This document shows, one piece after another, positions 1 through 61,515 of a stretch of DNA of 64,000 bases (its first letter is position 1; each line of letters begins with the position of its first letter). This DNA is from Shinella granuli (lineage in GTDB: Bacteria > Pseudomonadota > Alphaproteobacteria > Rhizobiales > Rhizobiaceae). The notes beneath the pieces were generated by a model that saw only the letters and a list, made by a program, of their open reading frames with translations, was not told the DNA's origin and did not search any database. A program made the translations under genes and the position numbers. The stretch lies in contig NZ_SLVX01000007.1 of the NCBI RefSeq assembly GCF_004341885.1, positions 62,001 through 126,000 on the forward strand, in the 5' to 3' direction.

Positions 1-129
1 ATGCTCGCCGACGGTTCGCTGCGCGCCGAGGGTTTCGTCCGCCAGGAGGAAATCGCCCTCGACACCTTCCTCGCCAACCGTTTCGGTCACTACTACGCCC
101 AGGAAAACCACGGCGCCCGCGCCGCCTGA
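1..129 (+). CDS. C-terminal end of a probable saccharopine dehydrogenase-family protein (5' truncated)
   Basis: Only the last 42 codons lie in the window, read in frame 1 to TGA at 127-129; the real start is upstream of base 1. The tail contains GFVRQEEIALDTFLANRFG, which I associate from memory with the C-terminus of saccharopine dehydrogenase-like proteins of alphaproteobacteria. In lysine degradation such an enzyme cleaves saccharopine to glutamate and 2-aminoadipate 6-semialdehyde. That assignment gains weight from the following genes, which encode every later step from that semialdehyde to 2-oxoglutarate. The fragment is too short for a certain family call; the context is suggestive, not proof. 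A good hairpin terminator follows 20 bases after the stop codon. Confidence 0.45.
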   Translation: MLADGSLRAEGFVRQEEIALDTFLANRFGHYYAQENHGARAA

Positions 130-148
130 CCTTCCAGACCCTTCAGAC

Positions 149-173
149 GCCCCGGTTCGGACCGGGGCGTTTT
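149..173 (+). terminator. Rho-independent terminator after the truncated first gene
   Basis: A perfect 8-bp stem (149-156 with 161-168, GCCCCGGT/ACCGGGGC) closes a TCGG loop and is followed by GTTTT. It lies 20 bases after the stop codon of the first gene. Confidence 0.8.
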
Positions 174-234
174 CGCATCTGTGGCTCGGCCGCGGGGAAG
201 TAGAGAACGCCACAAGGCGCGGATCCATAAAAAT

Positions 235-263
235 GGGGCCTCTTTCGAGGCCCCTTTTCTTTT
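235..263. terminator. Bidirectional terminator between convergent genes
   Basis: A perfect 8-bp stem (235-242 with 247-254, GGGGCCTC/GAGGCCCC) has T-rich flanks on both sides: TTTTCTTTT on the plus strand and ATTTTTAT on the minus strand. It sits 20 bases beyond the stop of the minus-strand aminotransferase, so it probably ends the lysine-degradation operon. Confidence 0.8.
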
Positions 264-282
264 GTCCGATTGGTGATGCGGC

Positions 283-1521
<1,239 letters not shown>

Positions 1522-3045
1522 CTACTCGATGTCGAAGGAGACGCCCTGGGCGAGCGGCAGAGCCTTCGAATAGTTCACCGTGTTGGTGGCGCGGCGCATA
1601 TAGGCCTTCCACGCGTCGGAGCCGCTCTCGCGGCCGCCGCCGGTTTCCTTCTCGCCGCCAAACGCGCCGCCGATTTCCGCGCCCGAAGTGCCGATGTTGA
1701 CATTGGCGATGCCGCAATCCGAGCCGTCGGCGGCGAGGAAGCGTTCGGCTTCCTGCATGTTCAGCGTGAAGATCGACGAGGAGAGGCCGGCCGAAACGGC
1801 GTTGTGATCGTCCAGGACGGCGTCGAAGTCGGAATATTTCATGACATAGAGGATCGGCGCGAAGGTCTCTTCGAGAACCGGGCCGGCCTGCTTCGGCATT
1901 TCGACGATGGCGGGCTTGACGTAGTAGGCCGTGTCCTTCCCGGCTTCCGCGACGCGTTCGCCGCCGGTGACGGAACCGCCTTCGGCCTTGGCTGCTGCCA
2001 GCGCCTTCTGCATGCCGTCGAAGGCCTGCTTGTCGACGAGCGGGCCGACGAGCGCCGAGGTTTCCAGCGGGTTGCCGACGGAAACGCTGGTATAGGCCTT
2101 CTTCAGGCGCGGCACGAGCTGGTCGTAGACGCTGTCATGCACGAAGAGGCGGCGCAGCGTCGTGCAGCGCTGGCCGGCGGTGCCCATCGCGCCGAAGGCA
2201 ATCGCGCGCAGCGCCATGTCGAGGTCGGCCGAGGGGCAGACGATGCCGGCATTGTTGCCGCCGAGTTCGAGGATCGAGCGGGCAAAGCGCTTGGCAAGAC
2301 GCGGGCCGACTTCCTTGCCCATGCGGGTGGAGCCGGTGGCCGAGACGAGCGCGACCTTGGAATTGTCGACGAGGGCTTCGCCGATGGCGCGGTCGCCGAT
2401 GAGGACCTGCGACAGGTTCGCCGGGGCGTCGCCGAAGCGGGCGAGGGCGCGCTCGAAGATCGCCTGCGATGCAAGGGCGGTCAGCGGGGTCTTTTCGGAC
2501 GGCTTCCAGACGATGGAATTGCCGGCGACCAGCGCCAGCGCGGCGTTCCACGACCAGACGGCGACCGGGAAGTTGAAGGCCGAGATGATGCCGACGACGC
2601 CGAGCGGGTGCCAGGTCTCCATCATGCGGTGGCCGGGGCGTTCGGTGGCGATCGTCAGGCCGTAGAGCTGGCGGGAGAGGCCGACGGCGAAATCGCAGAT
2701 GTCGATCATTTCCTGCACTTCGCCGAGGCCTTCGGAGGTGATCTTGCCGGCCTCGATGGAGACGAGGCGGCCGAGATCGGCCTTGGCGGCGCGCAGTTCC
2801 TCGCCGAGCAGGCGGACGAGTTCGCCGCGCTTCGGTGCGGGAACGAGACGCCAGGCCTTGAAGGCGTCGTGGGCGGCGTCGATCGCCTTGTCGGCCTCGG
2901 CGGCCGAAACGGTCTTCAGCTTGCCGATCTCCTCGCCGGTGACCGGGCTGTAGGAGGCCATGTCGCCGCCCTGCCAGGCGCTGCGCGCGACGCCGAGCTT
3001 GTCGAGAAGGGTTTCGGTTTCCTGTTTCACGTCGACTTTCGTCAT
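1522..3045 (-). CDS. amaB: L-2-aminoadipate 6-semialdehyde dehydrogenase (ALDH7 family, AmaB-like)
   Basis: An NAD(P)-dependent aldehyde dehydrogenase of 507 residues. It carries the ALDH7/antiquitin signatures: LELGGNNAGIV with the general base E260, and GTAGQRCTTLRRL with the catalytic C294. ALDH7 enzymes oxidise 2-aminoadipate 6-semialdehyde (in equilibrium with piperideine-6-carboxylate) to 2-aminoadipate, the meeting point of the saccharopine and pipecolate routes of lysine breakdown. The ATG at 3045 is preceded by GGGAGACACCCC, a good ribosome site. The gene lies 21 bases after the flavoprotein gene and directly before the aminotransferase gene, in pathway-consistent company. ALDH7 membership is clear from the motifs; the substrate follows from family and context. 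Confidence 0.9.
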   Translation of the reverse strand: MTKVDVKQETETLLDKLGVARSAWQGGDMASYSPVTGEEIGKLKTVSAAEADKAIDAAHDAFKAWRLVPAPKRGELVRLLGEELRAAKADLGRLVSIEAGKITSEGLGEVQEMIDICDFAVGLSRQLYGLTIATERPGHRMMETWHPLGVVGIISAFNFPVAVWSWNAALALVAGNSIVWKPSEKTPLTALASQAIFERALARFGDAPANLSQVLIGDRAIGEALVDNSKVALVSATGSTRMGKEVGPRLAKRFARSILELGGNNAGIVCPSADLDMALRAIAFGAMGTAGQRCTTLRRLFVHDSVYDQLVPRLKKAYTSVSVGNPLETSALVGPLVDKQAFDGMQKALAAAKAEGGSVTGGERVAEAGKDTAYYVKPAIVEMPKQAGPVLEETFAPILYVMKYSDFDAVLDDHNAVSAGLSSSIFTLNMQEAERFLAADGSDCGIANVNIGTSGAEIGGAFGGEKETGGGRESGSDAWKAYMRRATNTVNYSKALPLAQGVSFDIE

Positions 3046-3066
3046 GGGGTGTCTCCCTGTCTGTTT

Positions 3067-4485
3067 TTAGAATGTGATGGTGCCGAGCGGGCCCGGCGAG
3101 GTGATGGTTTTCAGCCCGGCCGCAAGCGCGCGGAGCTTTTCCGGGGTGTATCTGTCGTAGAAGGCCTGGTTCTTGCGGCCGATGGCGTGTTCCGCGCTGA
3201 AGCTGCCGCCGAATTGCTCGACCGCGACGGTGAAGACCCATTCGCGCAGGTCCGCCTCGAAATCGGGATCGGCAAGCCGTGGGTCGTCCTTCGCGACGAC
3301 CAGGTTGAAGTGCACGCCGCCGTCGCCGATATGGCCGAAGTCGCAGATCGTGACGTCCTCGAAGTGATCAGGCATTTCCGCCTTCATATGGGCGAGGAAG
3401 GGCATGATGTCACCCCGGCGGAAGGACAGATCGAAGGCGATCAATCGCCCGCGATGCTTCACGCCCTCCGAGAGCGCATGGCGCAGCGCCCAGATCTCGT
3501 GCGGCGGGCCGACGAAGGCGTCGGCGAGCGGTGCGTCCTCGCGCTCCCAGATCGCGGCGAGCACCTCTTCCAGCACCGCGTCGAGCGGCTGCTCGCCAGC
3601 GCGCGGCGGAGTGGAGCGGGAGATTTCCGCGAGGATGACGAAGTCGGGCACCACGCCGCCCTGGAAGGGATTGCGCAGCGACGGCACATGATCGAGCGCG
3701 GCGGCGACCGCGTTGCCGGACATGCCCTCGAAGGCCGAGAGATAGCTGCCGAGCGCGTCTTCCATGGCGACGAGCAGCGTCGCGACCTGGTCTGCCGAGG
3801 CGGGCACGAGCAGGGCGGTGGCGGACTGTTTCGGGGCGGGTTCGAGGTTCAGCACGCATTCGGTGACGACGCCGAAGGCGCCCGACGTGCCGATGAAGAG
3901 CTGCTTCCAGTCGACGCCGGTATTGTTCTTGCGCAGGTCCGAGGAGAGGTCGAGCACGGTGCCGGCCTCGTCGGCGAGCACCACGGTGAGGCCGAGAACA
4001 TTGCGGCGCACATCGCCGTAGCGCAGGAACCGCGAGCCGCCGGTGTTCGTCGCGATCATGCCGCCGAGGCGCGGGTCGGCGCCGAGGTCGATCGGGAAGA
4101 AGAGGCCGCTGTCTTCCAGCTTGCCGTTGAGGTCGGAAAGGCGCAGGCCCGCCCCGGCCCTGACCGAGCGGTTCACCCGGTCGAGGTCGAAGGGGGCGGT
4201 CAGGCGGTCGAGGCTGAGCACGCCCTGTCGGCCGCTCCCGTCGGGCGTCGAGCCGGAGACGAGGCCGGTATTGCCGGACTGCGGCACGAGCGCGATGGCG
4301 TTCCGCACGCAATAGGAGACGATGGCGGAGGCCTCCGCCGTCGTGGCCGGGCGGGCGACGAAGGCGGCGCGGCCCCTGTCGTAGCGCGCGCCGGTCTCGT
4401 AGGCGGCCATGTCGGCTTCTTCGGTGAGAAGACCCTTCTCGCCGGCAAGGCCCTTCAGCGCTTCGATATGGCGTGCCTCGATCAT
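3067..4485 (-). CDS. FAD-binding oxidoreductase, probable D-2-hydroxyglutarate dehydrogenase
   Basis: A 472-residue FAD-linked oxidase of the GlcD/D-2-hydroxyglutarate dehydrogenase type. It has an N-terminal PCMH FAD-binding domain (about 35-215, with SGNTGLVSGS near 70 and NTGG near 147), and a C-terminal oxidase domain with the GHIGDGG motif at 384-390 and AEHAIGRK near 431. The likely reaction is D-2-hydroxyglutarate to 2-oxoglutarate, consuming the product of the neighbouring HglS. In P. putida this step is assigned to the much larger YdiJ, so a single-module enzyme here would be a simpler alternative. ATG 4485 is chosen because GGAAG lies just upstream of it; an in-frame GTG at 4500 overlaps the HglS stop and would add five residues. 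A lactate or glycolate specificity cannot be excluded. Confidence 0.82.
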   Translation of the reverse strand: MIEARHIEALKGLAGEKGLLTEEADMAAYETGARYDRGRAAFVARPATTAEASAIVSYCVRNAIALVPQSGNTGLVSGSTPDGSGRQGVLSLDRLTAPFDLDRVNRSVRAGAGLRLSDLNGKLEDSGLFFPIDLGADPRLGGMIATNTGGSRFLRYGDVRRNVLGLTVVLADEAGTVLDLSSDLRKNNTGVDWKQLFIGTSGAFGVVTECVLNLEPAPKQSATALLVPASADQVATLLVAMEDALGSYLSAFEGMSGNAVAAALDHVPSLRNPFQGGVVPDFVILAEISRSTPPRAGEQPLDAVLEEVLAAIWEREDAPLADAFVGPPHEIWALRHALSEGVKHRGRLIAFDLSFRRGDIMPFLAHMKAEMPDHFEDVTICDFGHIGDGGVHFNLVVAKDDPRLADPDFEADLREWVFTVAVEQFGGSFSAEHAIGRKNQAFYDRYTPEKLRALAAGLKTITSPGPLGTITF

Positions 4486-4496
4486 GCGCTCTTCCG

Positions 4497-5894
4497 TCAC
4501 TCCGCAGCGGCAGCCATGTTGACGATGCCGAGGCACATTTCAAGCGACGCGCGCTGGATGGCGGCATAGTGGGCGAATTCGTCGAGGACGGCATGGCCGA
4601 GATCGCGCTCGAACATCACCTGGTTCGGGCTGGCGACGAAGTCCTGGGTCGCGTCGTCGCCGAGGTTCGACTGGAAGATGCCCGCGGCGCTGACCGGCAG
4701 GAAATCCTCGTAGACGATCGGGTCGAAGCGGATGAGGCCGGCTTCGATCGCCGTTTCGAGATCGGCGTTGCGGCCGGTGCCGGACTTGCCCTTCTCCGTC
4801 AGGCAATAGGTGAAATAGCCGAGGCCCGCCTTGCGGATGCCGTCCCAGTCATCCGGGAAGGCCTTGAAGACGTCGGCGAGCGCGGCCTCGTATTCGGCGG
4901 CATTGGAGCCGTCGGCGGCCGGGCGCACGCGGGCGCGCGTCTCGGTGAGCAGCCGGTCGTAGAGCGCGCGGCCCTTCGGCGTCAGTGCCACGCCGCGCTG
5001 CTCGATCTCGCCGAAGCGGGCCGTGTGGGAGCCTTGCTGCCAGGCGCCGTCGGCGCCGATGAAGGAGACGGCCTCCTCCAGCGCCTTGAACGAGGTCTGG
5101 CGCAGGAGGATCGGGCAGGTGCGGGTCGGCGGGCCCTCGACGACGGCCTTCGGGGCGATGCCCTCTTCCGGCATGCGGGCCTGTACCTTGTCGATGTCGA
5201 GCGTGCGCGGTGTCAGGTGGTTGATGTGCGGACCCTTGAAGGAGACGACGTCGGCGATCAGGCGATGCGCCTCGTGCAGGCGCTTGTACATGTCGGCGCT
5301 GACGATGGCCTGGTCGTGCCAGCGGAAGGTTTCCAGCACTTCGCTGACGAAATGGGCGGCATCGGCTTCATCGAGGCCGCCGTCACGCTCGGCCTTCTCG
5401 ACGAGCCTGACGGCCTCGTCGGTGAAGATCTTTCGTGCGGCGAGCACGTCGGCCGCTTCTTCACGCAGTTTTTCGTCGGCGATGAGATCGAGGCGCAGCA
5501 GCGAGGTGAAGACGCGGAAGGGGTTGAGGCTGAGGCTTTCGGCGCCGACCGGGCGGAAGGCGGTGGAGTGCACGGGAACGCCGGCGGTGGAGAGGTCGTA
5601 GTAGCCGACCGGGAACATGCCCATGACGGCGAAGACGCGGCGCATCATGGAAAGCTCGCCCGGCGTGCCGAGGCGGATGGCGCCATGGCGTTCCTCGGAG
5701 ATGCGCTCCAGCGTGTCTGTCGCCTCCAGGCGCTCCCTGAGGACGGGGTCGGCGGCAAGCGTCTCGGCGTTCACCTCGGCCACCAGCGACATCAGCGTGC
5801 CATAGGCGGGAACCTCGTTGCGGTACATGGCGGACATCGCGGCGGAGAAGTCCGCGCGGATCTTGTCGGCGGAAACGTGCGAATTTGCTTTCAT
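4497..5894 (-). CDS. hglS: 2-oxoadipate dioxygenase/decarboxylase HglS (DUF1338)
   Basis: A 465-residue DUF1338 protein that, from memory, follows P. putida HglS (PP_5260) almost end to end, including FKGPHINHLTPRTLDID and YEDFLPVSAAGIFQSNLG. HglS is a metal-dependent VOC-fold enzyme that converts 2-oxoadipate, with O2, to D-2-hydroxyglutarate and CO2. The residues I remember for metal binding and substrate contact are present: H70 in EERHGAIR, R74, H226 in the GPHINH motif, and E296 in FGEIEQR. The start ATG 5894 matches the homologue N-terminus (MxANxxVSxDxIRAxFSAAMS); an upstream TTG at 5924 and ATG at 5909 would only add residues, and none of the three has a strong ribosome site. First gene of the minus-strand operon, divergent from the LysR gene. 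Confidence 0.93.
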   Translation of the reverse strand: MKANSHVSADKIRADFSAAMSAMYRNEVPAYGTLMSLVAEVNAETLAADPVLRERLEATDTLERISEERHGAIRLGTPGELSMMRRVFAVMGMFPVGYYDLSTAGVPVHSTAFRPVGAESLSLNPFRVFTSLLRLDLIADEKLREEAADVLAARKIFTDEAVRLVEKAERDGGLDEADAAHFVSEVLETFRWHDQAIVSADMYKRLHEAHRLIADVVSFKGPHINHLTPRTLDIDKVQARMPEEGIAPKAVVEGPPTRTCPILLRQTSFKALEEAVSFIGADGAWQQGSHTARFGEIEQRGVALTPKGRALYDRLLTETRARVRPAADGSNAAEYEAALADVFKAFPDDWDGIRKAGLGYFTYCLTEKGKSGTGRNADLETAIEAGLIRFDPIVYEDFLPVSAAGIFQSNLGDDATQDFVASPNQVMFERDLGHAVLDEFAHYAAIQRASLEMCLGIVNMAAAAE

Positions 5895-5996
5895 GGCGAG
5901 CGGTCTCATCTCGATGTTGCGCAATTCCGCATGGAAAACCGCTTCACACTTTTCCTGGAATTGCTTTAGAAGGGTGGGAGGCCCTGATCATTCTCA

Positions 5997-6019
5997 AAAC
6001 GGATCATACCGGATCGTTT
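5997..6019. promoter_or_regulatory. Candidate LysR operator in the hglS/LysR divergent promoter region
   Basis: The 171-base gap between hglS and the divergent LysR gene contains an imperfect dyad: AAACG at 5997-6001 and CGTTT at 6015-6019, with two internal GATC copies. LysR regulators usually bind such sites beside their own gene and the target operon. Which factor binds it is inference from position. Confidence 0.4.
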
Positions 6020-6065
6020 CTTGCCGCGATTGCGACCGTTCTGACTATGTTGATGCGAGGAAAGA

Positions 6066-6962
6066 ATGAAGCTCAGTCGAAGGCTGATCCCCGACGTCAC
6101 CACGCTGCAGGCGTTCGAATGCGCCGCGCGCCACGGCAGCTTCACGCAGGCGGCCCATGAGCTGAACCTCACCCAGAGCGCCGTCAGCCGCCAGATCAAG
6201 GACCTGGAGGAACAGCTGGGCGTGCTGCTGTTCGAGCGCGTGCGCCAGCGCGTGGTGCTCTCTGACGATGGCCGCCGTTTCCTGCCGGAAGTGCGCAAGC
6301 TGCTGCACCAGACGGAGGAGACCATGCTGCGCGCCATGGCATCGGCCTCCTCCGAGCACAGCCTTTCCATCGCGACGCTGCCGACCTTCGGCAGCCGCTG
6401 GCTGACGCCGCGCATTCCGGGCTTCCTTGCGGAAAATCCCGGCACGATCATCAACATCGCCTCGCGCTCGGCGCCGTTCGATTTCGACGAGGAGAATTTC
6501 GACCTCGCGATCCACTACGGCCAGCCAGTCTGGGCGCGGGCGGCCTGTACCTATCTGTGCAGCGAGGTCATTCTCCCCGCGGCAAGCCCGGAGCTGGTGA
6601 AATCCTGGAACCTTGCCGAGCCGAAGGACCTGGAGCGGGCGCCGCTCCTGCATCTTGCGACGCGCCCGAAGCTCTGGGCGCAATGGTTCGAGCTGAACGG
6701 CGGCTCGGCGGATACGGCCTATCGTGGCCATCGCTTCGACCAGTTCTCCATGGTCATCGAGACGGCCGTCGCGGGGCTCGGCTTCGCGCTGCTGCCGCAT
6801 TACCTGATCGAGCAGGAGCTGGCGAGCGGCCGGCTCGCCGTCGTCTTCGACCGGCCGATGGAGACGGAGAACAGCTATTATCTCGTCGTGCCGGAAGGAA
6901 AGCTCGAAAATCCGCTGAGCCAGGCGTTTCGCGCCTGGATTTCCCGGCAGGTCCCGGCATAG
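6066..6962 (+). CDS. LysR-family transcriptional regulator (GcvA-like), probable regulator of the lysine-degradation operon
   Basis: A 298-residue LysR-type regulator. The N-terminal winged helix-turn-helix (about residues 10-70) includes FTQAAHELNLTQSAVSRQIKDLE, followed by a periplasmic-binding-protein-like effector domain from about 90. The PTFGSRWLTPRI segment is typical of the GcvA-like subgroup. GAGG precedes ATG 6066 at good spacing. It is transcribed divergently from hglS and lies between the operon and the pipecolate-oxidase-like gene, so it probably controls one or both. The effector is unknown; lysine, aminoadipate or a pathway intermediate would make sense. Confidence 0.88.
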   Translation: MKLSRRLIPDVTTLQAFECAARHGSFTQAAHELNLTQSAVSRQIKDLEEQLGVLLFERVRQRVVLSDDGRRFLPEVRKLLHQTEETMLRAMASASSEHSLSIATLPTFGSRWLTPRIPGFLAENPGTIINIASRSAPFDFDEENFDLAIHYGQPVWARAACTYLCSEVILPAASPELVKSWNLAEPKDLERAPLLHLATRPKLWAQWFELNGGSADTAYRGHRFDQFSMVIETAVAGLGFALLPHYLIEQELASGRLAVVFDRPMETENSYYLVVPEGKLENPLSQAFRAWISRQVPA

Positions 6963-7084
6963 GATTTTCGCGGCCGATCATGCGGCGGGGGCATGACCCC
7001 GTTCTCATTTTTTGCTTTAGTCGTCGGGCCGCATGGCCGATTGTGCGGCGAGAAATCCTTCTCCTCCGGAAAAGACTGACGCCC

Positions 7085-8368
7085 ATGCTCAACGACCCGC
7101 GCTCCCATGGCCTTTGGGAGATGACCGCTCCGCCCGCCCCCGAAACCGTCGCCTTTTCCGGCAGGGCGGAGGCGGATGTCGTCATCGTCGGCGGCGGGTA
7201 TACCGGTTTCTCGACGGCGCTGCATCTGGCCGAGCGCGGCACGCGGGTCATCCTGCTCGAAGGGGCGGAGATCGGCTACGGCGGCTCGGGCCGCAATGTC
7301 GGCCTCGTCAATGCCGGCATGTGGGTGATGCCCGACGAACTGCCCGGCGTGCTCGGCGACCTGTACGGCAGCCGGCTGCTGGAACTTCTCGGCAATGCGC
7401 CGCGTGCCGTGTTCGACCTCGTCGAAAAGCATGCGATCGATTGCGAGATCAACCCGGCCGGCACGCTGCATTGCGCCGTCGGCCAATCCGGTCTCGACGA
7501 ACTGAAGCAGCGCGCCGAGCAATGGGCCCGCCGCGGCGCGCTGGTGCGCCTGCTGGACGCGGCCGAGACGGCGGCGAAGGTGGGCACGGAGGCCTATGCG
7601 GGCTCGCTCCTCGACCTGCGCGCCGGCACGATCCAGCCGCTCGCCTATGCGCGCGGCCTTGCCCGCGCGGCGATTGCGGCCGGCGCTGCGGTCTTCACGG
7701 CAAGCCCGGTGACGGGTGCGGAGCGGACGGGAAAACGGTGGACGGTGACGACCGCGCGCGGCTCCGTCACGGCGGACTGGGTGGTCGTCGCCACCAATGC
7801 CTATACGGTGGCGCCTTGGAACGAGGTGCGCAGCGAGCTCGTGCACCTGCCCTATTTCAACTTCGCCACCGCGCCGCTTTCGCCCGAGATGCAGGCGAAG
7901 ATCCTGCCGGAGCGGCAGGGTGCCTGGGACACGAAGGAAGTCCTCTCCTCCTTCCGCTTCGACAAGCGCGGCCGGCTGGTGTTCGGCAGCGTCGGCGCGT
8001 TGCGCGGCACGGGCACCGGCGTTCACAAGGCCTGGGCGCGGCGCGCGCTGAAAAAGCTCTTCCCCGCGATCGGCGATGTCCCCTTCGAGGCGGAATGGTA
8101 CGGCAAGATCGGCATGACGACGGACAACCTGCCGCGCTTCCACCGCCTTGCCGAGAACGTCATCGGCTTTTCCGGCTACAACGGCCGCGGCATCGCGCCC
8201 GGCACGGTCTTCGGCCGCACGCTGGCGGAGCTCATTTCCGGTGAGATCGCCGAGACGGACCTGCCGCTGCCGGTGAGCGCGCCCGAGGCGCAGTCCTTCC
8301 GCTCGATGCGCGAGGGCTATTACGAACTCGGCGCGCAGATCGCCCATTTCGCCGGCGCCCGCTTCTGA
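7085..8368 (+). CDS. FAD-dependent amino-acid oxidoreductase, probable L-pipecolate oxidase (AmaA-like)
   Basis: A 427-residue DAO-type flavoprotein with a Rossmann FAD motif VVIVGGGYTGFST at about 32-44, the second conserved stretch YGGSGRNVGLVNAG, and the C-terminal FAD-contact segment FSGYNGRGIAPGTVFGR. The overall pattern resembles P. putida AmaA (L-pipecolate oxidase) and PuuB-type gamma-glutamylputrescine oxidases. Given ALDH7 and HglS next door, oxidation of L-pipecolate to piperideine-6-carboxylate is the best guess; sarcosine- or putrescine-type substrates remain possible. ATG 7085 starts the conserved N-terminus, although the purine-rich GGAAAAG upstream is further away than ideal. 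A long hairpin follows the stop. There is no membrane anchor, so it is likely peripheral or cytosolic. Confidence 0.8.
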   Translation: MLNDPRSHGLWEMTAPPAPETVAFSGRAEADVVIVGGGYTGFSTALHLAERGTRVILLEGAEIGYGGSGRNVGLVNAGMWVMPDELPGVLGDLYGSRLLELLGNAPRAVFDLVEKHAIDCEINPAGTLHCAVGQSGLDELKQRAEQWARRGALVRLLDAAETAAKVGTEAYAGSLLDLRAGTIQPLAYARGLARAAIAAGAAVFTASPVTGAERTGKRWTVTTARGSVTADWVVVATNAYTVAPWNEVRSELVHLPYFNFATAPLSPEMQAKILPERQGAWDTKEVLSSFRFDKRGRLVFGSVGALRGTGTGVHKAWARRALKKLFPAIGDVPFEAEWYGKIGMTTDNLPRFHRLAENVIGFSGYNGRGIAPGTVFGRTLAELISGEIAETDLPLPVSAPEAQSFRSMREGYYELGAQIAHFAGARF

Positions 8369-8381
8369 TTTCGGGGCCGCG

Positions 8382-8415
8382 CCCGCCTGTTTCCTGCGAA
8401 ACAGCGGCAGGCGGG
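8382..8415 (+). terminator. Hairpin after the pipecolate-oxidase-like gene
   Basis: An 8-bp GC stem (CCCGCCTG 8382-8389 with CAGGCGGG 8408-8415), with a possible inner TTTC/GAAA pairing, lies 14 bases past the stop codon. There is no T-run, so termination efficiency is uncertain. Confidence 0.5.
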
Positions 8416-8430
8416 ACGATGTGAGATCTT

Positions 8431-8479
8431 CTGATCACCGGATGAGAGAGGCTCATCCCCAACAAGAGATCAGGAGAGA
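8431..8479 (+). promoter_or_regulatory. Structured 5' leader of the small secreted protein gene (copy 1)
   Basis: Two nested stems precede the gene. The outer pair is CTGATC (8431-8436) with GATCAG (8468-8473); the inner pair is GGATGAG (8440-8446) with CTCATCC (8452-8458), loop AGAGG. The 3' arm of the outer stem runs straight into the ribosome site GGAGAG (8473-8478), so folding could affect translation. The same arrangement recurs at 61023-61076 before a paralogous gene. Confidence 0.6.
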
Positions 8480-8483
8480 CCCC

Positions 8484-8660
8484 ATGCGCAAGATCATCGT
8501 TTCCGCCACCGTCGCCCTCATTGCCGCCGTCTCCTTCGCCGCCCCCTCGCAGGCCGGCTACTACAGCTACGGCTACAAGCCGCACTGCTTCATCAAGAAG
8601 GTCAAGGCCTACGACTACTACGGCAATGTCATCTTCAAGACGGTCAAGGTCTGCAAGTAA
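8484..8660 (+). CDS. Small secreted Tyr-rich protein (58 residues), paralogue of the protein at 61080
   Basis: A 58-residue protein with a clear signal peptide: a basic start (MRK), a hydrophobic core and a probable cleavage site at PSQA|GYY near residue 24. The mature part is about 34 residues, rich in Tyr and Lys, with two cysteines that could form a disulfide (one in PHCF, one at the C-terminus in KVCK). I do not recognise a functional family. The signal peptide is nearly the same as that of the 82-residue protein at 61080-61328, and both genes share a structured leader and a 3' hairpin. ATG 8484 follows the ribosome site GGAGAG. Export to periplasm, surface or medium is inferred. Confidence 0.8.
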   Translation: MRKIIVSATVALIAAVSFAAPSQAGYYSYGYKPHCFIKKVKAYDYYGNVIFKTVKVCK

Positions 8661-8683
8661 GCGCTTTTCCCGCTGACCTCCCC

Positions 8684-8716
8684 GAAGGCCCGGATGTCCC
8701 CTGCATTCGGGTCTTC
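8684..8716 (+). terminator. 3' hairpin of small secreted protein gene (copy 1)
   Basis: GAAGGCCCGGATG (8684-8696) pairs imperfectly with CATTCGGGTCTTC (8704-8716). The sequence that follows, TGCCGTTTC, resembles the bases after the stronger hairpin downstream of the paralogue (61350-61384). It probably ends or stabilises the transcript. Confidence 0.55.
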
Positions 8717-8780
8717 TGCCGTTTCTGGCGACGCTGGCGGTCGACAACGGCTGCGGTGCCGAATGCCTGCGCAACGCCAC

Positions 8781-8829
8781 TGCGCTTACGGTGCGCATGG
8801 CAAGGCGCTTCCAGCGGATGCCGTAAGCG
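8781..8829 (-). terminator. Hairpin beyond the CobW-family gene
   Basis: A 10-bp perfect inverted repeat, GCGCTTACGG (8781-8790) with CCGTAAGCGC (8820-8829), lies just past the stop of the minus-strand GTPase gene. A competing 8-bp stem uses 8802-8809 with 8824-8831. There is no T-run, so it is a possible terminator or RNA stabiliser. Confidence 0.4.
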
Positions 8830-8845: not shown

Positions 8846-10024
8846 TCAGAGGCGCAGGCCCGGAATGGCGAGGGGATTGTCGGACAGCGCGGCGCGGTCC
8901 GGCCGGTCGATCTTCGGCGTGCCGGTGAAGGCATCGAAGAGATCGCGTACGAAGGCTTCCGGCAGGTCCCTGGTGATCAGCACCAGCCGCGTGCGACGGT
9001 CGGCCGGGTCGGGCCAGGCGGAAAGGCGCTCCGGCGGATGGAAGACGCTCTGCACGCCCTGCAGCACCAGCGGCCGCTCCGGATTGTTGGACATCAGCAC
9101 GATGCCCTTCATGCGCAGGAGCTTTTCCCCGTGCGCGGAGCGCAGGAGATCGATGAACATCTCCAGCGCCATCGGATCGACCGGCCGGTCGTGCACGATG
9201 CTGAAGGAGCGGATCGTCGCGTCGTGGCGGGTCACGTCATGGGCGTGCTGGTGGGCATGATGGTGATGATGCCCGTGGTCATGGCCGTGATGGTGGTGGT
9301 CATGATCGTGGTGATGCGCGTGATCGTGCCCATGATCATGCTGGTCGTGCGCCTCTTCGTGCAGCCATCGGCGGACGTCGGGGATCTTGCTGCCGGGATC
9401 GTAGAGGCCGTTGGCGAGGAGGGCCGGGCCGACGAGGCCGGGCGTGTCGATGTCCGAGACGCTCGCCCGCGGATTGAGTGCGGCGATCTCCCGCTGCACC
9501 GCTTCCACCGCCGCGGCATCGGCAAGCGAGATCTTGCTGATCAGCACGCGGTCGGCGACGGCGACCTGCTTGACCGCCTCGGGATGGTTGGCGAGCGTCG
9601 ACAGGCCGTGGACGGCATCGACCACGGTGATCACGCCGTCGAGGCTGAAGGACTGGCTGAGCACCGGATTGCCCATGACGGATTGCAGCACCGGCGCGGG
9701 ATCGGCAAGGCCGGTCGTCTCGATCACCACGCGCTTCAGCGGCTGGATCCTGCCCGTCTGCATGCGGTCCATCAGGTCGGCGAGCGTATCGACCAGCTCG
9801 CCGCGGATCGTGCAGCACAGGCATCCGTCGGAAAGCTCGATGACGCCGTCGCTCGACTGTTCGACGAGCAGGTGATCGATGCCGACCTCGCCGAATTCGT
9901 TGATGATGACGGCCGTGTCGGTGAGCGTCGGGTCCTTCAGCAGCCGGTTGAGCAGGGTCGTCTTGCCCGCGCCCAGAAATCCGGTCAGCACGGAAACCGG
10001 CACGCGCCGCTCAGCAGGGGTCAT
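8846..10024 (-). CDS. CobW/COG0523-family G3E GTPase metallochaperone with a long His-rich segment
   Basis: A 392-residue G3E GTPase. Walker A is GFLGAGKTT at 15-23. The metal-binding CxCC is C68-L-C70-C71 in DGCLCCTIRGEL. IETTGLADP lies near 101, and SKIS stands in the NKxD position near 163. A CobW C-terminal domain follows from about 270. Between the domains (residues 226-262) is a stretch with 23 histidines in 37 residues, interspersed with Asp and Gly. Such proteins hand over or insert metals (Zn, Co, Ni); His-rich members are often linked to zinc limitation, but no Zur site was identified here. ATG 10024 is preferred because GGAAAGACC sits just before it; the longer reading adds 13 residues without support. 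The target protein is unknown. Confidence 0.88.
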   Translation of the reverse strand: MTPAERRVPVSVLTGFLGAGKTTLLNRLLKDPTLTDTAVIINEFGEVGIDHLLVEQSSDGVIELSDGCLCCTIRGELVDTLADLMDRMQTGRIQPLKRVVIETTGLADPAPVLQSVMGNPVLSQSFSLDGVITVVDAVHGLSTLANHPEAVKQVAVADRVLISKISLADAAAVEAVQREIAALNPRASVSDIDTPGLVGPALLANGLYDPGSKIPDVRRWLHEEAHDQHDHGHDHAHHHDHDHHHHGHDHGHHHHHAHQHAHDVTRHDATIRSFSIVHDRPVDPMALEMFIDLLRSAHGEKLLRMKGIVLMSNNPERPLVLQGVQSVFHPPERLSAWPDPADRRTRLVLITRDLPEAFVRDLFDAFTGTPKIDRPDRAALSDNPLAIPGLRL

Positions 10025-10063
10025 GGTCTTTCCAATCACATGGGGCCAATCGAATGGGGCCAA

Positions 10064-11179
10064 TCAGAAGGTGGTGGGACGCGGGATCGGGATCGGCACG
10101 TTGGCAAGGCCGCCGGTGTCGCCGACGGCGACCTGTTCGTTGCCCGCGGGCTTGGCCGTGTCCCCGCCGATAAGGCCCGCGAAGACCAGCTTCAGCGGCC
10201 GGTTCAGCTCATGGATATAGGGCGAGACGAGCTTTTGCCGCCCGGCCTCGTCGCGGCTTTCGCTGCGCACCTTGGCCGCGTGTTTCGAGCAGATCTCCTG
10301 CGAAACGTCGGCGACGATGTCGCGCGTCTCGCCATAGGGGCGCAACTGGCCGAGTGTCGGCACATTGCCTGCCTGCTTCGTCAGGCCCTTTTCCAGCATG
10401 CCGGCGGAAATGTCCGCGCGCGCGCCGAGGCTGTCGGAGCCGAGCACGACGGAGACGACGCTGCGGCCGTTGCGGGTGGCCGAGGACACCTGGTTGAAGC
10501 CGGAGGCGCAGATGAAGCCGGTCTTCATGCCGTCCGCGCCGTCGAAGCGGCCGATCAGCATGTTGAAGTTCGGATATTGCTTCTTGCCGGTGGTGAAACC
10601 TTCCAGCGCGAAATAGGAGGCGTATTGCGGGAATTCGCGCTTCAGCGTCACGGCAAGCACGGCAAGGTCGCGCGCCGTCGTGTACTGGCCCTTGCCGGGC
10701 AGGCCGTGCGGATTGATGAAATGCGAGGAACTCATGCCGATGCGGGCGGCTTCGGCATTCATGCGGGCGACGAAAGCCTGTTCCGAGCCGGCGACGGATT
10801 CGCCGATCGCCACGGCGACGTCGTTGGCCGATTTCACCAGGATGATCTTCAGCGCACTGTCGAGCGTCATCTTCTGGCCGGGCTTGTAGTACATCTTGCT
10901 CGGCGGCTCGGCGGCGGCGTTCTTCGTCATCGTCACCGTGCTTTCCAGCGAGACCTCGCCGGCCTTGATCGCGCGGAAGACGGTGTAGGCGGTCATCAGC
11001 TTGGTCAGCGAGGCCGGATACCAGCGCTGGAAGGCATCCTCGTGCTCGATGACCTTCAGCGTGTTGACGTCCACAAGGATGCGCGGGGCGGCGGTTGCCG
11101 CGGTTGCCAGAAGGGTGGCTGCGAGCAGCAGGCTGGAGCCCAAAAACCATGCGCTCCGGCGCGTCGTTCGTCCGTTCAT
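10064..11179 (-). CDS. D-alanyl-D-alanine carboxypeptidase (S11 penicillin-binding protein, DacF-like)
   Basis: A 371-residue exported S11 serine peptidase. An N-terminal signal peptide (hydrophobic core about 10-28, AAATA-type cleavage near 30) is followed by the catalytic triad of motifs: S57-L-T-K60 in YPASLTKLM, S-A-N in VKSANDVAV, and K-T-G in GMKTGFICASG. It removes the terminal D-Ala from peptidoglycan pentapeptides in the periplasm. The C-terminal tail is Pro-rich and has no obvious amphipathic anchor. ATG 11179 is chosen over the TTG two codons upstream (11185). The ribosome site is weak. The CobW-family gene follows 39 bases later and could be co-transcribed. Confidence 0.9.
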   Translation of the reverse strand: MNGRTTRRSAWFLGSSLLLAATLLATAATAAPRILVDVNTLKVIEHEDAFQRWYPASLTKLMTAYTVFRAIKAGEVSLESTVTMTKNAAAEPPSKMYYKPGQKMTLDSALKIILVKSANDVAVAIGESVAGSEQAFVARMNAEAARIGMSSSHFINPHGLPGKGQYTTARDLAVLAVTLKREFPQYASYFALEGFTTGKKQYPNFNMLIGRFDGADGMKTGFICASGFNQVSSATRNGRSVVSVVLGSDSLGARADISAGMLEKGLTKQAGNVPTLGQLRPYGETRDIVADVSQEICSKHAAKVRSESRDEAGRQKLVSPYIHELNRPLKLVFAGLIGGDTAKPAGNEQVAVGDTGGLANVPIPIPRPTTF

Positions 11180-11310
11180 CTGCAAGGCTGTGTCCTCGAA
11201 ATCGGGAGTTGTCTCGAACCGTCGCCCTATTTAACCTATATGGCACCGTGATGGCAAAGCCATCGAATGCAGATGGCCGGTTTTGCGGCCGAAATGACAG
11301 GAAGTGTTGC

Positions 11311-12471
11311 ATGCCCATCCTCAACCGCGCCGCAGAGATGCAGGACGAAATCGCTGAATGGCGCAGGCAGATCCACCGGGAGCCGGAAATCCTCTTCGCC
11401 GTGGAAAAGACCGCCGCCTTCGTGGCCGGGAAGCTGCGCGAATTCGGCGTCGACGAAATCGTGACCGGCATCGGCCGCACGGGCGTCGTCGGCCTCATCC
11501 GCGGCAAGGGCGAGGGGCGCACGATCGGCCTTCGCGCCGACATGGATGCGCTGCCGATCGAGGAGGCGAGCGGAAAACCCTGGGCCTCGACCGCCAAGGG
11601 CAAGATGCATGCCTGCGGCCATGACGGCCACACGGCCATGCTGCTCGGCGCGGCGAAATACCTTGCCGAGACGCGCAATTTCTCCGGCAATGTCGCGGTC
11701 ATCTTCCAGCCGGCCGAAGAGGGCGGCGGCGGCGGCAACGAGATGGTCAAGGACGGCATGATGGAGCGCTTCGGCATTGCCGAGGTCTACGGCATGCACA
11801 ACCTGCCGGGCATGCCGGTCGGCTCCTTCGGCACGCGCCCCGGCCCGATCATGGCGGCGACCGACGAGTTCAGCATCACGGTCAGGGGCCGCGGCGGCCA
11901 TGCCGCCCTGCCGCACAAGACGGTCGATCCGATCGTCATCGGCGCCCAGGTGGTTTCCGCGCTCCAGACCATCGTCTCGCGCGTCGCCGATCCGATCGCG
12001 TCCCTCGTCGTCTCCGTCACCAAGTTCAACGCCGGCTTCGCCCACAACGTCATCCCGGAGACGGCGCAGCTTGCCGGCACCGTGCGCACCCTGAGCGCCG
12101 AGATGCGCCAGGAGGCGGAAACCCGCATCCGCCAGATCTGCGATGGCCTTGCGGCCGCCCACGGCGCCGAGATCACGGTCGGCTACCACCGCAACTATCC
12201 CGTCACGGCCAACCACCCCGAGGAGACCGGCCATGCCGTCGCCGTCGCGCGCGAGATCGCCGGCGAGGCCGCGGTCGACCCGTCGCTCGATCCGATGATG
12301 GGCGGCGAGGATTTCTCCTACATGCTGCTCGCCCGCCCCGGCGCCTTCATCTTCCTGGGCAACGGCGACAGCGCGGGCCTGCACCATCCGGCCTACGATT
12401 TCAACGACGATGCCATACCCCATGGGGTGAGCTACTGGGTCAAGCTCGCCGAAAGCCGCCTCGCGGCCTGA
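11311..12471 (+). CDS. M20-family amidohydrolase (hippurate/N-acyl amino acid hydrolase type)
   Basis: A 386-residue zinc peptidase of the M20D aminoacylase/hippuricase type. Metal and catalytic motifs are visible: RADMDALPIEE, HACGHDGHTAMLLG, and PAEEGGGGGNEMV with the catalytic glutamates, plus a C-terminal metal site in MMGGEDFSYML. The dimerisation (lid) domain spans about residues 185-295. It hydrolyses N-acylated amino acids or peptides in the cytosol; the exact substrate cannot be read from sequence. ATG 11311 follows AGGAAG at good spacing. It is divergent from the carboxypeptidase gene, and a short hairpin with a T4 tail follows. Confidence 0.9.
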   Translation: MPILNRAAEMQDEIAEWRRQIHREPEILFAVEKTAAFVAGKLREFGVDEIVTGIGRTGVVGLIRGKGEGRTIGLRADMDALPIEEASGKPWASTAKGKMHACGHDGHTAMLLGAAKYLAETRNFSGNVAVIFQPAEEGGGGGNEMVKDGMMERFGIAEVYGMHNLPGMPVGSFGTRPGPIMAATDEFSITVRGRGGHAALPHKTVDPIVIGAQVVSALQTIVSRVADPIASLVVSVTKFNAGFAHNVIPETAQLAGTVRTLSAEMRQEAETRIRQICDGLAAAHGAEITVGYHRNYPVTANHPEETGHAVAVAREIAGEAAVDPSLDPMMGGEDFSYMLLARPGAFIFLGNGDSAGLHHPAYDFNDDAIPHGVSYWVKLAESRLAA

Positions 12472-12517: not shown

Positions 12518-12594
12518 GGTCCCGTAGCTCAGCAGGATAGAGCACCAGATTCCTAATCTGGGGGTCCCGCGTTCGAATCGCGGCGGGATCACCA
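12518..12594 (+). tRNA. tRNA-Arg (anticodon CCU)
   Basis: A full 77-base cloverleaf. The acceptor GGTCCCG (12518-12524) pairs with CGGGATC before A and an encoded CCA end. The D-arm contains GCTC...GAGC. The anticodon stem CCAGA/TCTGG encloses TTCCTAA (anticodon CCT), and the T-arm is CCGCG TTCGAAT CGCGG. It reads AGG arginine codons. Confidence 0.97.
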
Positions 12595-61384: not shown

Positions 61385-61436
61385 CCGTTTCCGGCCATGG
61401 ATTGATTCATCGCCTGACTAGCGCTATTTAAACGGC

Positions 61437-61490
61437 TCGTGGTGATTTGGCCGGCCGGCTTGCAGCCACGTTAAACAAGTCGCTAAAGGG
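61437..61490 (+). promoter_or_regulatory. SAM-II riboswitch (metA leader)
   Basis: The sequence matches the SAM-II consensus closely: TCGTGGTGATTTG at 61437-61449, CTTGCAGCCACG at 61459-61470, and TTAAACAAGTCGCTAAA at 61471-61487. Stem 1 is formed by CGTGG with CCACG, and the 3' part folds back as the classic H-type pseudoknot. SAM-II binds S-adenosylmethionine and represses methionine synthesis genes in alphaproteobacteria. It lies 76 bases before metA, followed by a terminator hairpin. Confidence 0.95.
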
Positions 61491-61515
61491 CCGCGCGAGG
61501 AAAAACCTTCCGTGG

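Follow-up and report, generated by a model that had tools for sequence, protein, structure and literature searches.

The window analysed here, a 64,000-nucleotide stretch of the Shinella granuli genome (6.59 Mb in 97 contigs; the window covers positions 62001-126000 of contig 7), opens with a gene cluster built around hglS. We consider it probable that this cluster serves the catabolism of L-lysine and L-pipecolate to 2-oxoglutarate. In the proposed route, a lysine 6-dehydrogenase acting on lysine and an AmaA-type oxidase acting on pipecolate would both give aminoadipate semialdehyde/piperideine-6-carboxylate, which ALDH7 would convert to 2-aminoadipate and an AatB-type aminotransferase to 2-oxoadipate. 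HglS, using Fe(II) and O2, would then decarboxylate and hydroxylate 2-oxoadipate to D-2-hydroxyglutarate. A D-2-hydroxyglutarate dehydrogenase (D2HGDH)-like flavoprotein, with a second D2HGDH relative and YdiJ as backup, would oxidise this to 2-oxoglutarate. A LysR regulator may control the divergent pair of transcription units at hglS, and an Lrp-type regulator the lysine 6-dehydrogenase gene. The analysis directly shows the order of the genes, that ALDH7 and HglS belong to their families, which residues are kept and that the neighbourhood is conserved; all substrates and regulation, the choice of lysine over saccharopine dehydrogenase and the final step are inferred.

The cluster is conserved and consists mostly of known enzymes. 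It is not a new kind of system, and the result is sound and largely expected. Through it, a lysine-to-2-oxoglutarate route that avoids glutarate would gain a physical home in many Rhizobiales. The analysis adds a probable correction of the entry enzyme, a link to AatB and the absence of Lys401 from the D2HGDH-like protein. The first serves as a warning that ‘saccharopine dehydrogenase’ labels adjoining hglS probably denote lysine 6-dehydrogenases; the second suggests a physiological role, in 2-aminoadipate metabolism, for the long-known AatB aminotransferase; and the third marks out a D2HGDH-like clade lacking a lysine required by the human enzyme.

The hglS operon and its conserved neighbourhood

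Four genes lie on the minus strand in the transcription order hglS, D2HGDH-like gene, ALDH7 gene and aminotransferase gene, separated by gaps of 11, 21 and 3 bp whose sizes depend on the start codons chosen in the analysis. On the plus strand, lysR (6066-6962; Pfam PF00126 and PF03466) diverges from hglS and is followed by an AmaA-like FAD gene (7085-8368), while the end of a lysine-dehydrogenase-like gene (lysDH-like, 1-129, plus strand) converges on the operon from the other side. From this layout, which includes DNA fetched upstream of the window, the cluster comprises three or more transcription units and is not the one operon with its regulator that a preliminary description of this DNA had proposed. 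Every enzyme class named in that description was found in its place by gene calls, Pfam and NCBIfam, and on the whole its observation is partly confirmed and its interpretation partly supported. Terminator-like hairpins lie between the convergent lysDH-like gene and the operon (235-254, bidirectional) and between lysR and the FAD gene (6984-7003). Both are consensus matches, and each is weak evidence because 12 such sites occur in 8.8 kb where 5.9 are expected. A promoter scan of positions 1-8800 found none, and Rfam gave no match in the block at gathering thresholds.

HglS (4497-5894, minus strand) and ALDH7 (1522-3045, minus strand) both exceed their curated equivalog cut-offs. HglS scores 757 bits against NF049974 (cut-off 550) and matches the solved structure 6w1g with an E value of 2.3e-170. 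Its longest frame reaches 5924 (475 aa); as its alignment with P. putida HglS begins at residue 11, we place the likely start at the ATG at 5894. The available text of PMC7286885 names a metal triad of His70, His226 and Glu294 in the P. putida enzyme, together with Arg74, Val402 and Ser403. All six are kept here, as His80, His236, Glu306, Arg84, Val411 and Ser412 of the 475-aa frame. The nearest named HglS proteins among the matches listed come from Shinella sumterensis (91%) and S. curvata (90%). The protein is thus a member of the HglS family, and conversion of 2-oxoadipate to D-2-hydroxyglutarate is its predicted activity. ALDH7, the putative L-piperidine-6-carboxylate/aminoadipate semialdehyde dehydrogenase (AmaB), scores 822.8 bits against NF050084 (cut-off 730) and has solved ALDH7 relatives. 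The steps leading from aminoadipate semialdehyde by way of 2-aminoadipate and 2-oxoadipate to D-2-hydroxyglutarate, as first described, are well supported.

To describe the neighbourhood, genes within 9 kb of hglS were called by BLAST with the window proteins under identity cut-offs, so distant homologues count as absent. The 49 family (Rhizobiaceae) loci exclude the window, and the named set takes the best 80 of at least 590 confirmed stretches; the two sets overlap, and 7 of the 80 named loci have less than 6 kb on one side. ALDH7 lies near hglS in 43/49 family and 68/80 named loci, and LysR in 43/49 and 70/80 (divergently in 41 of the 49). The aminotransferase gene is found in 24/49 and 43/80, the FAD gene in 26/49 and 34/80, and the D2HGDH-like gene in 21/49 and 31/80. 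All six companions accompany hglS in 6/49 family and 4/80 named loci, the latter being S. sumterensis, S. curvata, Mycoplana dimorpha and Rhizobium alarense, while in three of the 49 family loci hglS stands without any of the six at these cut-offs.

In broader genome samples, 50 of 151 family genomes and 73 of 299 phylum genomes have PF07063 matches. Among the phylum genomes, full-length HglS was counted at 39 places (37 genomes), and the remaining matches are short, distant forms; 20-kb neighbourhoods were taken for all of the 39 but two (G173 and G256). The core cluster recurs across Rhizobiales, and because the arrangement recurs in many genomes it is more than chance. One variation on it was seen in five Ciceribacter/R. 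daejeonense loci (L178, L179, L181, L189 and L197), where the aminotransferase gene comes directly after hglS and the D2HGDH-like gene, with ALDH7 missing from its usual place.

The D2HGDH-like flavoprotein and the last step

The D2HGDH-like flavoprotein is encoded directly after hglS (3067-4485, minus strand; likely start ATG at 4485). The residues Arg386, His434, His441, Glu475 and His476, numbered as in human D2HGDH, are kept in the window protein and in 54/54 cluster homologues (47 distinct); these Zn/catalytic residues are also common to D-lactate dehydrogenases (PMC7801405). Of the two residues that bind the C5 carboxylate in human D2HGDH, Lys401 and Asn443, both strictly conserved in orthologues (PMC7801405), the cluster proteins share one. 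Asn443 is kept in 54/54, and the position of Lys401, a residue indispensable to the human enzyme, holds Ala in 50 and Gly in four. The window protein has Ala, the state reported for D-lactate dehydrogenases, which tells against the assigned last step. Thr390 is replaced by Ser and Tyr432 by Phe in 54/54 as well, but the genome's other D2HGDH relative, encoded on contig 6 (L313), also carries Ser and Phe, so Lys401 alone sets the clade apart.

These features bear on which enzyme oxidises D-2-hydroxyglutarate in this organism. The cluster protein may instead use another 2-hydroxyacid, leaving D-2-hydroxyglutarate to the contig 6 protein or to YdiJ. Beyond the lost lysine, this alternative draws on the two other candidates themselves, since the contig 6 protein retains Lys401 as well as Asn443 and resembles human D2HGDH more closely (292.5 bits, against 187 bits for the cluster protein) and YdiJ, encoded on contig 5, scores above its curated cut-off; the clusters of R. 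tropici and Ochrobactrum, moreover, have no D2HGDH-like gene. Against it stand the retained Asn443 and the gene's place directly after hglS, in the order hglS, D2HGDH-like gene, ALDH7, aminotransferase, in 18/49 family and 17/80 named loci. The nearest solved folds are also 6lpn (human D2HGDH) and 3pm9, with a D-lactate dehydrogenase behind by less than 3 Z, and Arg290, Arg357 and Arg414, which do not vary within the clade, could replace Lys401. On balance we regard the alternative as unlikely.

With Lys401 replaced, and with a closer D2HGDH relative and YdiJ in the genome, oxidation of D-2-hydroxyglutarate to 2-oxoglutarate by the operon's own protein is likely, not proven. Tentatively, the D2HGDH-like proteins of alphaproteobacterial hglS operons may form a separate subfamily dedicated to partnering HglS, one that lost the supposedly essential lysine and either binds the C5 carboxylate through arginines specific to the clade (Arg290, Arg357 or Arg414) or acts on a different hydroxyacid; we hold this as a possibility that falls somewhat short of even. 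The module had been called complete, which is not well supported: the last enzyme lacks the lysine of its human counterpart, and the steps from D-lysine to pipecolate fall outside the block.

The aminotransferase and the entry enzymes

The class I aminotransferase (283-1518, minus strand), the operon's last gene, finds its best match among solved proteins in 6f35, Aspartate aminotransferase B (739 bits). We take 6f35 to be a Sinorhizobium meliloti protein. The aminotransferase encoded in the hglS operon of Ensifer adhaerens matches it end to end (844 bits), and AatB thus very likely belongs to the hglS operon in Ensifer too. From the operon position of the Shinella gene we propose 2-aminoadipate as the substrate. 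Set against this is a score of 561.3 bits for NF004769, below the cut-off of 617. The filing of 6f35 as an aspartate aminotransferase would also suit a housekeeping aspartate/prephenate aminotransferase placed here by chance; we find this improbable, given that the gene ends a tight operon, that it lies near hglS in about half of the loci counted above, and that two paralogues elsewhere in the genome (73% and 69% DNA identity) could do the housekeeping. An AatB-type 2-aminoadipate aminotransferase remains the preferred assignment.

The lysDH-like gene had been described as the end of a saccharopine dehydrogenase gene. Reading the upstream DNA gave the whole gene (11029-12129 of locus L009; 366 codons and a stop), of which 972 bases precede the window and the final 129 lie inside it. 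Its product does belong to the saccharopine dehydrogenase family (PF03435 and PF16653) but among solved proteins its sequence is closer to an L-lysine dehydrogenase than to the saccharopine dehydrogenases. The best full-length solved relative is 3abi, titled L-lysine dehydrogenase of P. horikoshii (E = 2.4e-21; 6.3e-25 with a profile of 16 relatives). The human, yeast and Magnaporthe saccharopine dehydrogenases score more weakly (about 4e-11, 8e-8 and 3e-6; in the profile search 5e-13, 5e-8 and 2e-6).

If saccharopine were the intermediate, a lysine-ketoglutarate reductase (LKR) would have to supply it. A genome-wide search with PF05222 (AlaDh_PNT_N), which we presume recognises bacterial LKR although the search had no control, gave five hits and no evident LKR among them. 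One is alanine dehydrogenase (522.2 bits, cut-off 391.85), two are PntA (802.7 and 398.2 bits, cut-off 383), and two are N-terminal fragments at contig ends with PntA as their best match. These fragments (L017 and L018) close contigs 3 and 24, whose final bases look alike, and a repeated pnt copy may therefore break the assembly there. Two further PF16653 members occur in the genome: one reads as a homospermidine synthase from its sequence, with no NCBIfam hit at 1e-20, and the other resembles carboxynorspermidine synthase (446.7 bits, cut-off 800).

The gene's neighbours were compared in 30 family and 30 class loci, each set being the best-scoring and not a random draw. A divergent Lrp/AsnC gene, here at 10476-10928 of L009, stands beside the lysDH-like gene in 30/30 family loci (window locus included) and 13/30 class loci, and ALDH7 follows it directly in tandem in 11/30 class loci. 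The last arrangement is that of SPO0234 (lysdh) and SPO0235 (aasadh) in R. pomeroyi, consecutive tags whose functions, according to the available text of PMC4334477, were re-annotated from experiments. The same text, which does not mention hglS, gives R. pomeroyi an lkr (SPO3307), to which no counterpart was found among the PF05222 hits of the Shinella genome. Of 151 family genomes, 35 have both hglS and a lysDH-like orthologue (at least 64% identity), 15 have only the one, 15 only the other, and 86 lack both (Fisher p = 3e-11, uncorrected for kinship).

Since 3abi is the closest full-length solved relative, no LKR candidate appears among the PF05222 hits, Lrp adjoins the gene, ALDH7 often follows it in alphaproteobacterial relatives and R. 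pomeroyi has the lysdh-aasadh pair, the entry enzyme is probably L-lysine 6-dehydrogenase. A true saccharopine dehydrogenase fed by an LKR encoded elsewhere would fit the names of the Pfam domains and the top match of both searches, 3ic5, a ‘putative saccharopine dehydrogenase’ of which only a 118-aa N-terminal domain is present, yet we rate it improbable in view of the lack of an LKR candidate among the PF05222 hits, the ranking of 3abi and a length of 366 aa, the size of 3abi (365) and not that of the fungal enzymes (450-467 aa).

The second entry point is the FAD gene, whose product scores 467.1 bits against NF050086 and only 134 bits against the next family; we call it AmaA-like, a probable L-pipecolate oxidase. 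The two entries that had been proposed to converge here would still meet at ALDH7, in the form of the putative lysine 6-dehydrogenase and pipecolate oxidase; the saccharopine entry is not well supported. For the DpkA branch from D-lysine to pipecolate, the genome has five Ldh_2 (PF02615) genes outside the block; none reaches an NCBIfam cut-off, and none is assigned.

Several points weigh against these assignments. The FAD protein falls below the NF050086 cut-off of 600 (type ‘exception’), and the roles given to the two regulators derive from adjacency. Only 8 of the 49 other family loci carry the lysDH-like gene within 9 kb of hglS. A structural model of the lysDH-like protein, built from 16 close sequences of named loci, has a mean predicted local distance difference test score of 46.6 and is too poor beyond the N-terminal domain, so its fold ranking was used only for the title of 3abi. 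In the screen of the 60 lysDH loci for an adjacent LKR, the BLAST probes were alanine dehydrogenase and PntA, which makes it a weak test. Finally, the likeness to SPO0234 is one of gene arrangement; a search for the Ruegeria neighbours of 3ic5, which might be SPO0234, found no match above 56% identity in a class sample of 387 genomes.

Known systems and surrounding features

The chemistry from pipecolate to D-2-hydroxyglutarate is the same in P. putida, where the genes had been described as scattered. The aminotransferase and D2HGDH genes of that species presumably do lie elsewhere in its genome (PP_4108 and PP_4493). PP_5257, PP_5258 and PP_5260, however, are neighbouring locus tags and, in the available text of PMC6034422, are all higher in the wild type than in a racemase mutant, so the description is only partly true. 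By these tags, amaA-amaB-(PP_5259)-hglS (PP_5257 to PP_5260) brings the pipecolate oxidase, ALDH7 and HglS genes together as in Shinella, where the aminotransferase and D2HGDH-like genes have in addition joined the operon and the lysDH-like gene adjoins it. S. meliloti fitness data are said, in the portion of PMC7286885 available, to support the same role for HglS. Together with the neighbouring P. putida genes, this makes the Shinella cluster an extended form of a known pathway. The hglS-D2HGDH-like-ALDH7-aatB operons of Ensifer and the shorter hglS-ALDH7-aatB operons of Rhizobium share gene order and divergent LysR with Shinella; most operons of both genera lack an adjoining lysDH-like or FAD gene. 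A literature search at title level returned no title on such a cluster in rhizobia, and we do not claim it as unreported.

The DNA between hglS and lysR holds two further features. In 109 loci with divergent LysR and 80-420 bp between aligned ends, the 8-mer CGCATCAA occurs in 50 of 97 distinct intergenic regions, adjoining the lysR ribosome-binding region; as an operator candidate it is suggestive only. The hglS leader carries one copy (5917-5970; fold z-score -2.41) of a dispersed palindrome of 46-54 bp with at least 41 matches in the genome (40 of 65 candidates scored). Its inner stem is GGAAAA/TTTTCC or GCAAAA/TTTTGC among 30 copies viewed, a switching of the kind expected if pairing were conserved. 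The matches come from a DNA search, since an exact pattern proved too strict and fitted just 2 places.

Upstream of the window, beyond the Lrp/AsnC gene, 5559-10367 of L009 holds two gene pairs: a glutamine-synthetase-like gene with one for a second AmaA-like FAD oxidase (NF050086, 199.8 bits), and a GntR regulator gene with one for a DadA-like oxidase. We take this block to resemble gamma-glutamyl-amine catabolism, and it may feed the same lysine route. Just past the cluster, a frame at 8846-10063 contains a histidine-rich stretch; we take its product to be a CobW-like GTP-binding protein, possibly a metal chaperone. Elsewhere in the window, Rfam detected a tRNA gene (12518-12591, 65.2 bits) and a SAM-alpha riboswitch aptamer (61429-61506, 80.4 bits).

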